Of a stretch of 64,000 nt of DNA, positions 18,402-23,856 are shown piece after piece. Each line of letters begins with the position of its first letter. Position 1 is the first letter of the stretch. The notes under the pieces are model-generated. The model saw only the letters and a list, made by a program, of their open reading frames with translations. It was not told the DNA's origin and searched no databases. This DNA comes from Methyloversatilis discipulorum. GTDB taxonomy: Bacteria > Pseudomonadota > Gammaproteobacteria > Burkholderiales > Rhodocyclaceae. The stretch is taken from positions 1,984,001 through 2,048,000 of the forward strand of contig NZ_ARVV01000001.1 in assembly GCF_000385375.1 (NCBI RefSeq), in the 5' to 3' direction. The translations under genes and the position numbers were made by a program.

Positions 18402-19340
18402 TCAGCCCCAGCCGCCAAGCGTGTGTGCGTGTTCGGCGTCGAGGCGCGCCTTCAGTGCGTCGCACAGATCGCGGATCTCGGCCGATACGCCGCGCCAGCC
18501 CTGCTTGCCGACCGAGGTGGCGAACACATCGGACACCACCGAGGCGTGGTACGGCCCGCCGAGAAAGCGGAACACCGAGCGGAAGCTGCGCTCCGGGTGC
18601 AGTACGGCGTCCTCGTACTGCAGCGCGATCACCCGCGGGTCGCGGTCCAGGCCGAGGTCAAAGAACACGCGGTTGCGCATGTACCAGTACAGGCAGCCAC
18701 ACTCCTCGTCGCTCAGCGATTCGCTGTACAGCCTGCGGATCAGTGCGACCGTGTCGTCGGCAATGCGCAGGCCGCGCGGCCCGAGGTGGGACAGCTTGCC
18801 CTGCGACACCAGTCGCATCATGTTCTTCTGGTGGCTGCCCCAGCTGCGGATCGACGAATTCACCGCGTCCTCGTAGCGGCGGTACACCCAGATCGCGCGC
18901 GAATTGTCGAAACGGTCGAGCAGGGCGTCGGTGAACTGCGAATCGAGAATGCTGCCGAAGCTCACGTAGGGCGCCGGCGCGAAGTCGATCAGCCGTTCGA
19001 TTACCGCGTGCGAGCGCAGCGAATAGCGTTCGAAGGCGATCGAGAAATCTGCTTCCGGGTAGTCCCAGCCGTGCGGCGAGTTGCCGATCGCGCGGCACAC
19101 CATCTGCGTGCCCGAGCGGTTCGAGCCACTGATGAACACCGGCCGCTTCGTGCGCACCGGATGCAGCGTGAGCGTGCGCGCAATGCGTTTGCCGGCCCGT
19201 TCCAGCTGGATGTTGCCGTGGCGCAGCAGGCGCTCGGGCGTGATGCGCGACAGGCGGCGCGCGAGACCCGAAACCAGCGTACGTGCGTCGTCACGGACGG
19301 GGGCGGTGTAGGCGCTGGAAGCGTCGCGGAGTGAAGGCAT
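18402..19340 (-). CDS. PAPS-dependent sulfotransferase family protein
   Basis: The 312-residue cytosolic protein has the 5'-phosphosulfate-binding loop RPVFISGSNRSGTQMVCRAI at residues 66-85 and the downstream 3'-phosphate region IWVYRRYEDAVNSSIRSWGS, both typical of P-loop sulfotransferases. It should transfer sulfate from PAPS to an unknown acceptor, for example a glycan or lipid. It is the last gene of a five-gene operon, 2 nt after the HD gene. It is only distantly related to the frameshifted sulfotransferase of the same operon, so two acceptors or two positions are likely. Confidence 0.8.
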   Translation of the reverse strand: MPSLRDASSAYTAPVRDDARTLVSGLARRLSRITPERLLRHGNIQLERAGKRIARTLTLHPVRTKRPVFISGSNRSGTQMVCRAIGNSPHGWDYPEADFSIAFERYSLRSHAVIERLIDFAPAPYVSFGSILDSQFTDALLDRFDNSRAIWVYRRYEDAVNSSIRSWGSHQKNMMRLVSQGKLSHLGPRGLRIADDTVALIRRLYSESLSDEECGCLYWYMRNRVFFDLGLDRDPRVIALQYEDAVLHPERSFRSVFRFLGGPYHASVVSDVFATSVGKQGWRGVSAEIRDLCDALKARLDAEHAHTLGGWG

Positions 19341-19966: not shown

Positions 19967-20698
19967 TCAGATCGATTTGAACGCGACCAGCAGGCCCGAG
20001 CACAGCAGAAAGCCGTTGAAGGCTTTCGCGTAGCCCTGATTGCTGATCCGCTTGAAGATGAATTCGTTGGCGAACAGATACACCGCGACACCGGCGGCGG
20101 CGTAGATCAGGCTGTTGCCCAGCTGTGCGCGGGATTCGGGGCGCGTGATGGTCAGCGTCGCCAGCTGGAAGGCGGCGAACAGCACGTATGCGGCCGCGAT
20201 GGTTGCGCGCGCCACCTCCTTGCCATGATTCATCTGCTGCACGCGCATGCTGAGCAGCGAGCCGCCCAGATTGGTGAGGCCATGCATCACGCCTATGCAC
20301 ACCAGCCAGGTGCGCTCGAAGCGTGCGGTGCGGTCGATCGCGACGCGCAGGGCAGGCCACTGGTTCTTCAGCGCGAACAGAAGAAGCAGACCGGCGATCA
20401 GCAGGCCGAAGCTCTGGCCGGCGCGCAGCGCGACGATGAGGAAGAGCACGATGCACGGTACGGTCCATAACAGGATGCCGCGGATGAAGTGCAGGTCGAC
20501 GCTGCGCGCATCGCGCACGATCTGCGACAGGCTGATGCCGATCGAGATCGGCAACAGCGTGGCCAGCACCGTCGGGTAGTCATAGCCCATCACGATGAGG
20601 ATGGGCGTGCCGAACAGCAGCACGCCCACGCCGAACACCGACTGCACCAGCGCGACGGCAACGATGGGGATGAACAGCAGTGGTTCGATCGTATTCAT
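19967..20698 (-). CDS. TauE/SafE family permease
   Basis: The 243-residue membrane protein has about eight predicted helices and the two-repeat architecture of TauE/SafE (FGVGVLLFGTPILIVMGYDYP near the N-terminus, GVMHGLTNLGGSLLSM in the second half). The family exports sulfite, sulfoacetate and related anions. ATG 20698 overlaps the stop of the upstream sulfotransferase (ATGA). In this operon it may remove sulfite, import or export sulfate, or move the sulfated product or its precursor; the sequence cannot decide. Confidence 0.8.
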   Translation of the reverse strand: MNTIEPLLFIPIVAVALVQSVFGVGVLLFGTPILIVMGYDYPTVLATLLPISIGISLSQIVRDARSVDLHFIRGILLWTVPCIVLFLIVALRAGQSFGLLIAGLLLLFALKNQWPALRVAIDRTARFERTWLVCIGVMHGLTNLGGSLLSMRVQQMNHGKEVARATIAAAYVLFAAFQLATLTITRPESRAQLGNSLIYAAAGVAVYLFANEFIFKRISNQGYAKAFNGFLLCSGLLVAFKSI

Positions 20699-21667
20699 GC
20701 TGCCTTGTCCGCAGTAAAGGTTTCCGGATAGCCCATGTCGCGGGCAATGCTCCGCAGCGAGGGCAGCACGCGTTCGATGCGTTCGCGGTGCGCGTGCTGC
20801 CGCCATTTTTCGAGACGGATCTCGAACAGCGGGTCGTAGGGCTTGTCGAGCAGCGCTTTCGCGTGTCGCTCGATGCGTGCATCGAAGGGCAGTTCGAGCC
20901 GGTCGAATATTTCGAAGATGCCCTCGGTCGGCTCACGCACGATGTCCTCGTAGAACACCTCTATCCACTGGTCAGCCGGGATCTGCCTCTTTGCGTCGAG
21001 AATGGCGCGATGGATGGCTTCGTACTGGAAGGCGCATACCTCCTCGACCGGCGCCTTCAGGTAATTGCGCCAGCCGCGCGGCAGGTAGTGGCACCAGCGC
21101 GTGTAGCGGCCGTCGTCGACCGCGACCTTGGCCGGCAGATCGCGTGCCCAGCTGCCGAAGCGTTCCGGCATGCCCCAGCCCTCGATCATCGAGTTCAGCG
21201 TGTCACCCGGATTGCGCTTGATGTAGACGAAAGTGGCGTCCGGGAACAGCGCGTGCAGATAGGGCACGGCCAGACCATGCTGGTTGTTCTTGTCGACGAA
21301 GCGGGTGCGCCCGGTATGCGCATAGAAGTAGCGGGTGATCAGGTCGCGGTCGGCGTCCGTCGCATCGGCCGCCTCCAGCACGTGGCTTTCCCAGTTCCTG
21401 TCGGACGGGTGGTGAAGCGAGTCCCATACGGCATAGATTTCCCGGTGCCAGCGAGCCGATGGCCGACGATTCGGTCAGCGTCTTGTAAAGCATCTGCGTG
21501 CCGGAGCGGCTGCCGCTGACGACGAACACCGGCCGCTCGGCGCGCAGCCGGGTGCGGTCCCACCAGGCGCCGCGCAGGTCGGTCAGCGTCTTCTTCGCGT
21601 GATGGCGGACCGTCTTGTCCACCTTGAGCCAGAACTGTCCCATCGCGTCAGTTGCCCGCCTGCTCAT
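20695..21667 (-). pseudogene. sulfotransferase interrupted by a one-base frameshift
   Basis: Two frames together make one sulfotransferase. The first runs from ATG 21667 (MSRRATDAMGQ...) through the PAPS loop ERPVFVVSGSRSGTQMLYK to about 21450. The second continues from about 21447 (EIYAVWDSLHHPSDRNWESH) to TGA 20695, including FVYIKRNPGDTLNSMIEGWG. The total of 973 nt is one more than a multiple of three, so one extra base, probably a G in the runs at 21441-21449, explains the break. Repaired, the protein would be about 323 residues. The start overlaps the pyk-sat stop (ATGA) and the end overlaps the TauE gene. A sequencing error, phase variation or a true pseudogene all remain possible. Confidence 0.8.
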
Positions 21668-23856
21668 GCGTGAAACAGCGGCTGGCCCGCTTTGAGTTCG
21701 GCGCTGATCATGTCCTGCACGATGCCGCGTACATACCAGTCCGGCAGCGGTTCGCCGCGCAGCAGCGAATCGCGCACGCGGGTTCCGCTGATCGAGTGGG
21801 CGTCGTCGGTCACGCCGCTTTCGTAGGCGCCGGTGGCCGGGTTGTAGCCGATGGCGTCGAAGAACACCGGCGTGACACCGGTGTCGCCCAGTTCGTCGAA
21901 CAGTGCGCGATAGCTGCGGTCGTCGTAGAAGTCGCCGACGCCAGCGTGGTTGCGGCCGACGATGAAGTGGCTGCAGCCGATGTTCTTGCGGCACAGGGCA
22001 TTGAACACTGCCTCGCGCGGGCCGGCATAGCGCGGGTAGGTGGCGAGTGCGCCGAGCAGCACCTTGCCGTTGGGGTAGATGCCGAAGTCGATCAGCATCT
22101 GGTAGCTGCGGATCAGCGGGCGCGGCAGGAAGTCGCCCGGCTTCTTCGGCCCGACCACCGGGTTGATGAACAGGCCGTCGGCATTGGTGCGCTCCAGCGC
22201 TTCCAGCTGCAGGTGTTCGTGCACGCGGTGGCTGATGTTGCGGCCGTGGAAGGCCACTACCTTGCTCCAGCCCTTGTGCGCAAAGATGAAGCGGCTTTGC
22301 CGCGGCGTCAGTTCGAATTCTCGCCAGGGCGACGGACGCTCCTCGATCAGCGTGATGTCGCCGCCGACGAACCAGTCGCCGTTGCGCAGCACGCGCGCCA
22401 CACCCGGGTGGGCGGACGAGGTGGTGCCGAAGGCGAGTTGCGACAGTTCGGCGAGGTCGTAGCGGTAGATCTGCGTCACGTCGAGCACCGCGTGGGCGTC
22501 GCCCCGGTCGTCGGTGAGCACCACGCGCTGGCCCGGCGACAGCCGACGTGCCTGCGCCTCGTCGACCTGCAGGATGAGCGGCACCGTCCACGCCGTGCCG
22601 TCGGGCAGGCGGTTGCGATGCAGCACGCTGTGCAGCGTATCGCGGTCCATGAAGCCGGTCAGCGGCGAGAAGGTGCCGACGCCGATCTGCTGGCAGTCGA
22701 GCAGTTCGGTGTCGCGCACTGCCAGCCGCGGCAGCGCGGCAAGATCGTCGATGGCCGCCGCCGCACTGACGCGATTGACCAGCACGCCGCCGTGCGGCTC
22801 GATCAGCAGCGAGGTCGGATCGGTGGGCGTGTAGACCAGCGTGTCCTTGTGCGCCGCCGGCAGGCGCTCGTTCAGCACGCGGAATTCGCGGATGAGCTTG
22901 ACGATCATCGCCACGCAGCCGACCGGGTCCTTGCCGATCGCGGTCTCCGCCGCCAGTACCAGTCCGTCGGCGCCGTCGAGCAAGGTGTTGACCACGTCGT
23001 TCACCTCGGCCCGCGTGGGCTTGGGGGCGGTGATCATCGATTCGAGCAGATTGGTGGCGACATACACCTTGCGCTTGCGCGCCTGACCGCGCGCGATGAT
23101 GAGCTTCTGCAGCCGCGGAATGCGCTCGATCGGCTCCTGGCGCGACAGGTCGCCGCGGTCGATCAGCAGCGCGTTCGACTTTTCGGCGATCTCGTCCAGA
23201 TTGATCAGGCCGTTGCGGCATTCGATCTTGGAAATGAGGAAGGTGTCGTCGCCGACCAGCGCCCGCACCTGGTCGACGTCCGAACCGCGATTGGCGAACG
23301 ACAGCGCCACGTGGCGGATGCCGACCGAGCGGCCGTATTCGAGCGCCGCGATGTCCTTGGCCGTCAGCGTGTCGAGCGGGATGTCACGCTCGACGGTGAC
23401 CGCCTTGTTCTGGCCGATCACGCCGCCGTGCAGCACGCGCATCGTCACCTTGGCGTCGTCGCGCGAGATCACCTGCACCAGCACCGAATTGAAGTCGATG
23501 CTGATGAAGTCGCCGACTTCCAGCTTGTCGATCACGTCTTCCGGGTAGAGGTTGAAGTTGAATGCGTCGCCGGGTACGCGCAGCTTGTGCGCATGCACGA
23601 CGCTGTTCTCGCGTACAGCGATCTCGCCGTTCAGCATGTCCCCGGTGCGGATCTGCGCACCCTCGGTGTCGAGGCAGATCGGCACCGAGGTGCGGCTGCG
23701 GATGTAGTCGATCACGCGCGGCAGGTCCTGCAGCTTGGTGTGCGACAGGTTGATGCGGAACAGATTGACGCCCAGTTCTTCCAGCCGTGCGAGCACGCGG
23801 TCGTTCAGCGATGCCGGGCCGAGGGTGCAGAGGATTTCCTTGTCGGTGGTGCTCAT
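21664..23856 (-). CDS. pyruvate kinase-ATP sulfurylase fusion protein
   Basis: The 730-residue protein joins two enzymes. Residues 5-340 are a pyruvate kinase barrel: R34/N36/S38 in FRINLSHT, CLDTEGAQIRTG at 61-72, catalytic K210 and E212 in SKIEC, D236 in RGDL, T268 in YVATNLLESMI, and PTRAEVNDVVN. The allosteric C-terminal pyruvate kinase domain is absent. Residues 345-730 are an ATP sulfurylase: VVAFHGRNISHRVHEHL at 533-549 with the HxxH histidines H543/H546, HFIVGRNHAGVGDFYD and ISGTRVRDSL. Departures from canonical motifs are DTKG to DTEG and GRDHAG to GRNHAG. ATG 23856 has an AGGA site 7 nt ahead. It heads the sulfotransferase operon and should make APS from sulfate and ATP, perhaps with PEP-driven ATP supply. 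Confidence 0.9.
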   Translation of the reverse strand: MSTTDKEILCTLGPASLNDRVLARLEELGVNLFRINLSHTKLQDLPRVIDYIRSRTSVPICLDTEGAQIRTGDMLNGEIAVRENSVVHAHKLRVPGDAFNFNLYPEDVIDKLEVGDFISIDFNSVLVQVISRDDAKVTMRVLHGGVIGQNKAVTVERDIPLDTLTAKDIAALEYGRSVGIRHVALSFANRGSDVDQVRALVGDDTFLISKIECRNGLINLDEIAEKSNALLIDRGDLSRQEPIERIPRLQKLIIARGQARKRKVYVATNLLESMITAPKPTRAEVNDVVNTLLDGADGLVLAAETAIGKDPVGCVAMIVKLIREFRVLNERLPAAHKDTLVYTPTDPTSLLIEPHGGVLVNRVSAAAAIDDLAALPRLAVRDTELLDCQQIGVGTFSPLTGFMDRDTLHSVLHRNRLPDGTAWTVPLILQVDEAQARRLSPGQRVVLTDDRGDAHAVLDVTQIYRYDLAELSQLAFGTTSSAHPGVARVLRNGDWFVGGDITLIEERPSPWREFELTPRQSRFIFAHKGWSKVVAFHGRNISHRVHEHLQLEALERTNADGLFINPVVGPKKPGDFLPRPLIRSYQMLIDFGIYPNGKVLLGALATYPRYAGPREAVFNALCRKNIGCSHFIVGRNHAGVGDFYDDRSYRALFDELGDTGVTPVFFDAIGYNPATGAYESGVTDDAHSISGTRVRDSLLRGEPLPDWYVRGIVQDMISAELKAGQPLFHA

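Follow-up and report, generated by a model that had tools for sequence, protein, structure and literature searches.

The window studied here, a 64,000-nucleotide stretch of Methyloversatilis discipulorum (contig NZ_ARVV01000001.1, positions 1,984,001 to 2,048,000 of the forward strand), encodes a protein in which a pyruvate kinase (PK) barrel is joined to an ATP sulfurylase (ATPS). Its sequence and surroundings give what we regard as an even chance that this fusion is a dedicated sulfate-activation enzyme, which would supply 3'-phosphoadenosine 5'-phosphosulfate (PAPS) to sulfotransferases while the PK half uses phosphoenolpyruvate (PEP) to recycle the ADP released by adenosine 5'-phosphosulfate (APS) kinase. 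This reading is based on the APS kinase and sulfotransferase genes that accompany the fusion, on a relative in which a sulfotransferase is part of the same chain, and on the separate CysD, CysNC and ordinary pyruvate kinase of the host. The sulfotransferases, absent from the preliminary description of this DNA, are the strongest clue to the purpose of the fusion.

Sulfate activation is among the most uphill steps of metabolism, and three drives are known for it: hydrolysis of pyrophosphate (PPi), the APS kinase reaction, and the GTP used by CysN. ATPS converts ATP and sulfate to APS and PPi, with no ADP formed, and ADP is released only when APS kinase converts APS to PAPS. The preliminary description had placed PEP-fuelled ATP regeneration at the sulfurylase site, as a drive for the ATPS step itself. 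Recycling of this kind is still the best reading, but because ATPS makes PPi and not ADP, the PK cannot pull the sulfurylase step directly; since ADP arises at APS kinase, the coupling moves one step along. The covalent joining of PK to ATPS, and not to APS kinase, favors the original version, which we nonetheless consider quite improbable given its PPi product and the persistence of the PK in members with a degraded ATPS site. In the scheme proposed instead, the ATPS half would make APS from ATP and sulfate, and a partner APS kinase, encoded by the next gene in five lineages and elsewhere in others, would make PAPS and release ADP, which the fused barrel would convert back to ATP on the spot with PEP. 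Removal of ADP would relieve stalling of APS kinase and would add the free energy of PEP to an unfavorable pathway, and sulfotransferases would then use the PAPS, the probable targets being glycans of the cell surface or comparable molecules. The sequences establish the architecture, its recurrence and conservation, and the link to APS kinase and sulfotransferases through neighborhood and fusion; we infer from these that either half is catalytic, that ADP is the acceptor, that a complex forms with APS kinase and that a product is sulfated. In one reported release order for APS kinase, ADP leaves last and a dead-end enzyme-ADP-APS complex forms (PMC3734648; this and the other papers are cited by PMC number for excerpts of their text).

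The fusion gene lies on the minus strand (21664..23856; 730 codons and a stop), as do all features of the window given below. A single stop-free frame runs from 23925 to 21664, an ATG at 23856 yields a protein of 730 residues, and AGGAC stands shortly 5' of that ATG. The PK barrel with its B domain (residues 6-314; 22915..23841) matches positions 4-327 of the 328-position PF00224 profile (E 1.9e-68), scoring 231.4 bits over a curated cut-off of 30. A linker (residues 315-351; 22804..22914) leads to PUA_2, the N-terminal domain of ATPS (residues 352-505; 22342..22803; PF14306, E 8.5e-46, profile 1-158 of 159), and to the ATPS catalytic domain (residues 513-717; 21706..22320; PF01747, E 1.4e-59, profile 2-209 of 212), which carries the motifs HGRNISHRVHE and GRNHAG. 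PUA_2 and PF01747 both score over their Pfam cut-offs, and no PK C-terminal domain was listed for the fusion by Pfam at E 0.001, which bears out the earlier account of one continuous frame with an ATPS in place of that domain. A Foldseek search with the barrel returned solved pyruvate kinases as its best matches. The suggested structure prediction succeeded in part: AlphaFold2 with 10 rows gave a mean predicted local distance difference test score (pLDDT) of 69.7, good over the PK and mostly below 60 over the ATPS catalytic part, and because of that low confidence we draw no inference on the domain interface.

A frameshift, chimera or assembly join between the halves, a concern raised in the preliminary description, was rejected and retains next to no probability. 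One relative (L014) does carry the fusion in two frames in its metagenome-assembled genome (MAG), but the host genome is a single contig (4,251,015 bases, 99.99% complete) and 14 further lineages carry the fusion in separate assemblies. Among the full-length copies are one on an M. universalis EHg5 scaffold of 4.08 Mb and those of two rhizobial plasmids, both complete, and a 99% identical copy is found in a MAG named Methyloversatilis discipulorum (L010). In all, the search for other fusions found 15 lineages: the window with L010, L004, L005, L006, L007, L008, L009, L011, L012/L015, L013, L014, L025/L026, L049, L050 and L054. The scan of genome_contigs accounted for 12 fusion loci, 11 in one frame and one (L014) in two; the plasmids, one each from Ensifer and Sinorhizobium, encode fusions at 55% identity. 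By record title the taxa span Beta-, Alpha- and Gammaproteobacteria, Omnitrophota and KSB1. The fusion is nevertheless rare and patchy, at about 0.5% of the class and phylum samples (2 of 369 and 2 of 398 genomes, host included). In the family sample it was found in 2 of 150 genomes, again counting the host, both of them within the genus (four members sampled), and in the class around G611 in 1 of 48, namely G611 itself. Such rarity combined with wide taxonomic spread suggests horizontal transfer. An origin in phages was rejected, as one scan of viral_contigs returned 60 stretches with a pattern and no fusion relative among them.

Across these lineages the fusion keeps consistent company: in 13 of the 15, an APS kinase or a sulfotransferase adjoins it, lies within a few genes or forms part of the same protein. 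Five lineages have APS kinase immediately downstream (L009, L012/L015, L013, L025/L026 and L050), and in L009, L012, L013 and L050 the called frames overlap, stop on start; gene calls at several relatives' loci come from our own codon-usage script, and the overlaps depend on the starts chosen. A sulfotransferase adjoins the fusion in the window, L004, L005, L006, L014 and L049 and is fused to it in L054, making seven lineages, and lies a few genes off in L011, L012 and L050 (the L012 match, at 26.6 bits, is just under the 27-bit cut-off). Neither gene was among those called in the 15.6 kb locus of L007, and the L008 contig stops just past the fusion. A direct link is seen in L054 (8739-11945, minus strand), where a domain scan places sulfotransferase, PK, PUA_2 and ATPS in a single frame of 1069 residues with an intact ATPS motif (HGRNPAHRGHE). 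The gene is flanked by one for an O-antigen ligase and one of polysaccharide-export type, and is a second copy in the KSB1 genome of L011, which also has a degraded-site PK-ATPS and a separate ATPS.

By two measures of sequence conservation the PK is the better-kept half of the fusion. In 13 rows (without the near-copies L015 and L026, but with the four degraded-ATPS rows, whose inclusion lowers the ATPS figure by construction), invariant columns number 102 of 309 in the PK, 22 of 154 in PUA_2, 32 of 205 in the ATPS domain and 0 of 37 in the linker. Between the window and L004 or L005, both members with an intact ATPS motif, the ratio of nonsynonymous to synonymous substitution rates (dN/dS) is 0.055 and 0.095 for the PK, 0.22 and 0.42 for PUA_2, and 0.12 and 0.12 for the ATPS domain. 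In an alignment of 17 rows, two near-copies among them, R34, N36, S38, H39, D63, R70, K151, K210, E212, G235, D236 and T268 are identical throughout, and T64 is kept in 16 with Ser in L050, so that the list of PK ligand and catalytic residues is retained at 12 positions in every row and at the thirteenth in all but one. We take R34, K210, E212, D236 and T268 to lie on the PEP side, with K210 the catalytic lysine, R70 and K151 to be ATP ligands, and residue 44 and I307 to belong to the ADP side. Because the PK is the best-kept part, with the highest conservation, the lowest dN/dS and its ligand residues retained, simple decay of the barrel was rejected. PK activity of the fusion is likely, but not sure.

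The site has at the same time been remodeled. The shifts from DTKG to DTEG and from GRDHAG to GRNHAG given in the preliminary description are present, and there are further departures. The PK-site signatures DTEGAQ, DRGDLSR and AAETAI are specific to the family, and E65, A67, Q68, D233, S238, R239, N269, A302 and I307 are invariant in all 17 rows and differ in the canonical PKs compared, a set of six sequences all from the host's family. Residue 44 is Asp in 15 rows and Lys in two. At the positions numbered 113/114/117/120 in the rabbit enzyme the fusion family has T/E/Q/T (S at 113 in L050), matching neither of the two main PK classes, T/K/E/T (K+-dependent) and L/Q/K/hydrophobic (K+-independent), which together cover about 80% of PKs (PMC8835810). 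Rabbit PK remains active with K114Q (PMC8835810), the position at which the fusion family has Glu, and PKs of Crenarchaeota have other residues at 117, Gln among them (PMC4374775).

These residues bear on two other accounts of the barrel. It could be a PEP-binding sensor or scaffold that gates the sulfation machinery, or assembles it, in response to the level of PEP, forming no ATP; a regulatory barrel had been raised in the preliminary description and stands as a rival, while simple decay is opposed by conservation and the kept ligand residues. Fungal ATPS offers a precedent of a kind, carrying an inactive APS-kinase-like domain as a regulator. The crowding of family-specific changes at the PK site, including I307 and residue 44 on the presumed ADP side, the retention of all five presumed PEP-side residues, and the survival of the PK where the ATPS decays would all suit a sensor, yet a sensor has no obvious need for K210, the presumed catalytic lysine, nor does it readily explain why the presumed ATP ligands K151 and R70 are kept in all 17 rows, why the K+ site is kept save for T64S in L050, and why purifying selection is strongest in the PK. 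We judge a sensor possible but unlikely. The barrel could alternatively pass the phosphate of PEP to an acceptor other than ADP, such as a different nucleotide or an intermediate that carries sulfate or phosphate, with the changed residues forming the acceptor site. The nine invariant family-specific residues (E65 through I307), unlike those of the six host-family PKs, fit this proposal, but the signature is identical with or without an adjoining APS kinase, and APS kinase is present in 15 of 15 searched genomes or records and also in the host, which make such an acceptor improbable. For the same reasons it is unlikely that the PK has taken over APS phosphorylation; since the signature is the same whatever the neighbor, the PK seems not to replace APS kinase.

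The ATPS half has been less constant. All 15 rows of the single ATPS proteins compared read FQTRNPMHRSHE, and we take QTRNP.H..H and GRDH to be the active-site motifs. The window reads HGRN where QTRN is usual, with Gln replaced by His and Thr by Gly, so that the "complete ATP sulfurylase" of the preliminary description is complete in its domains but differs at two residues of this motif. The R, N, H, H and GR.H residues are kept in 11 of 15 fusion rows, all 11 with His for Gln, and the site is degraded in the other four (L009, L011, L049 and L050). On the tree this degradation requires three label changes, at least two of them by well-supported branches. Another strong ATPS is present in the genomes of all four degraded lineages as compared with one of eight intact-motif lineages (Fisher p 0.010), or two of nine when L014, with its two frames, is scored as intact (Fisher p 0.021). 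The count leaves out L054, which is in the same genome as L011, and the two plasmids, where the search covered the plasmid alone. Where the ATPS site is degraded, the PK could go on serving APS kinase, which is our proposed reason why the PK alone stays intact there. A fuller version of the reading, to which we give slightly less than an even chance, is a PEP-powered PAPS factory in which the remodeled PK is the constant part and keeps APS kinase running, the ATPS is optional and has decayed where another ATPS exists, and the KSB1 single chain, by adding a sulfotransferase, would unite every activity but APS kinase.

In addition to CysD, CysNC and an ordinary pyruvate kinase, the host has a stand-alone APS kinase and three CysN matches over cut-off, and the fusion is the sole PF01747 match in its genome. 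At L053:5891-8811, the gene of that stand-alone kinase follows one whose protein resembles, judged by eye, a PEP synthase-type enzyme, in surroundings that look like a sugar-acid and glycan cluster. Genome searches of G899, G903 and G904 returned no second PF01747 match and, at the cut-off, no CysN. These three may thus have no ATPS apart from that of the fusion, a point in favor of the sulfate-activation reading, and in G903 the APS kinase adjoining the fusion is the genome's only one. The fusion could alternatively serve sulfate reduction for cysteine, its sulfation neighbors being incidental. Apart from these three genomes the evidence is opposed to a cysteine role: of the 17 genomes or records searched, 8 have CysN over cut-off, host included, L054 is fused to a sulfotransferase, and an APS kinase or sulfotransferase is close by in 13 of the 15 lineages. 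We regard this alternative as very improbable.

Several observations weigh against a PAPS-supplying, ADP-recycling enzyme. Positions conserved in ordinary PKs are altered in all 17 rows (K114E, P116A and E117Q; ARGDLG to DRGDLS, ATQM to ATNL and SGETAK to AAETAI). Human PKM2 with K367M is described as lacking PK activity (PMC4737187), and the position of K367 is that of I307 in the fusion, Ile in all rows; as proof of a dead kinase I307 was set aside, since Ser occupies the position in 7oo1, titled as an isozyme of P. aeruginosa, and in all six host-family PKs. The ATPS motif is changed, by His for Gln in the family and by Gly for Thr in the window, and the four members with a degraded ATPS site cannot carry out the two-step role. 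No APS kinase adjoins the fusion in 10 of the 15 lineages. Lastly, the point drawn from genomes with no second ATPS is weakened by G906, whose fusion is near-identical to that of G903 and which has CysN over cut-off; the gap in G903 may therefore reflect an incomplete assembly.

In the window, the fusion is followed by a sulfotransferase gene (20695..21667), with PF13469 in its C-terminal frame, whose ATG at 21667 overlaps the fusion stop as ATGA. Its frame shifts near 21448 and is unbroken in the 99% identical MAG L010, in L004 and in L005, and M. universalis likewise has an intact sulfotransferase downstream of the fusion; the break is either a recent pseudogene or a sequencing error. A TauE/SafE-type transporter homologue (19967..20698) overlaps the sulfotransferase stop in the same ATGA manner, and these overlaps make it likely that the three genes form one operon. 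No Pfam family was listed for the TauE-like protein of the window (19967-20806), yet its relative in L004 scores as TauE/SafE; transporters of this type are near the fusion in L004, L006 and L007. A second sulfotransferase-family gene (18402..19340; PF13469, E 2.5e-08, 34.9 bits) belongs to the same gene run. A PF13469 search of the host genome found three sulfotransferase places, one adjoining the fusion, and missed this weaker gene, so the host has at least four. Genes for O-antigen ligase, flippase, heparinase-like or carbamoyltransferase proteins are near the fusion in L008, L025 and L054. Na/H-exchanger-type transporters were also seen near it, at L011:10548-11810, L025:14865-16118 and L049:4859-6055, and L011 and L049 carry sister fusions. 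In a tree that carries a long-branch warning, the four overlapping APS kinases (L009, L012, L013 and L050) form their own branch (98/95) apart from 14 others, and the L025/L026 kinases group with two further ones, on long branches. The partner kinases of the former four read NN(K/R)L, and most of the others compared read NI.R.

Comparison with known enzymes sets the fusion apart from each. Ten NCBIfam families were listed for it, each under its cut-off. It shares with pyruvate kinase (TIGR01064) the barrel, the B domain and the presumed PEP, K+ and Mg2+ ligand residues, but lacks the C-domain, has changed signature residues and scores 257.8 bits against a cut-off of 306.4. Single-chain ATPS proteins have the same PUA_2 and catalytic domains, and 11 of the 15 fusion rows retain RN..H..H and GR.H; the fusion differs in its His for Gln and scores 341.2 bits against 387 for NF003166 and 287.5 against 322.95 for TIGR00339. 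Bifunctional PAPS synthases (ATPS/APS kinase; NF004040 and animal PAPSS) likewise link enzymes for the activation of sulfate to PAPS, whereas the fusion has a pyruvate kinase and no APS kinase domain: it scores 239.5 bits against 669 for NF004040, and PF01583 was found in none of the seven fusion members scanned. E. coli-type CysDN also forms APS with an outside source of energy, but is GTPase-coupled and uses an ATPS unrelated to the Sat type; the host has both systems. The nearest parallel found comes from stramenopiles and haptophytes, in which ATPS is fused to inorganic pyrophosphatase (PMC2275785); as here, ATPS is joined to a helper that pulls the activation of sulfate. That helper removes PPi, whereas the N-terminal PK barrel of the bacterial, sulfotransferase-tied PK-ATPS would remove ADP. 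PK and PEP have been used in vitro to regenerate ATP during PAPS synthesis and so avoid the inhibition of APS kinase by ADP (PMC9885120), the same removal of ADP achieved in a laboratory mixture and not in one protein. In open-licence literature, judged by titles and the openings of abstracts, we found no published description of a PK-ATPS fusion.

If the proposed role is correct, PEP, used by a fused pyruvate kinase, would add a fourth drive for sulfate activation, one already exploited in vitro (PMC9885120), and L054 would be a sulfotransferase equipped with domains of its own for activating sulfate and recycling energy. The family could provide a single enzyme to aid PAPS synthesis, and it points to bacterial gene clusters whose products probably sulfate molecules of the cell surface.

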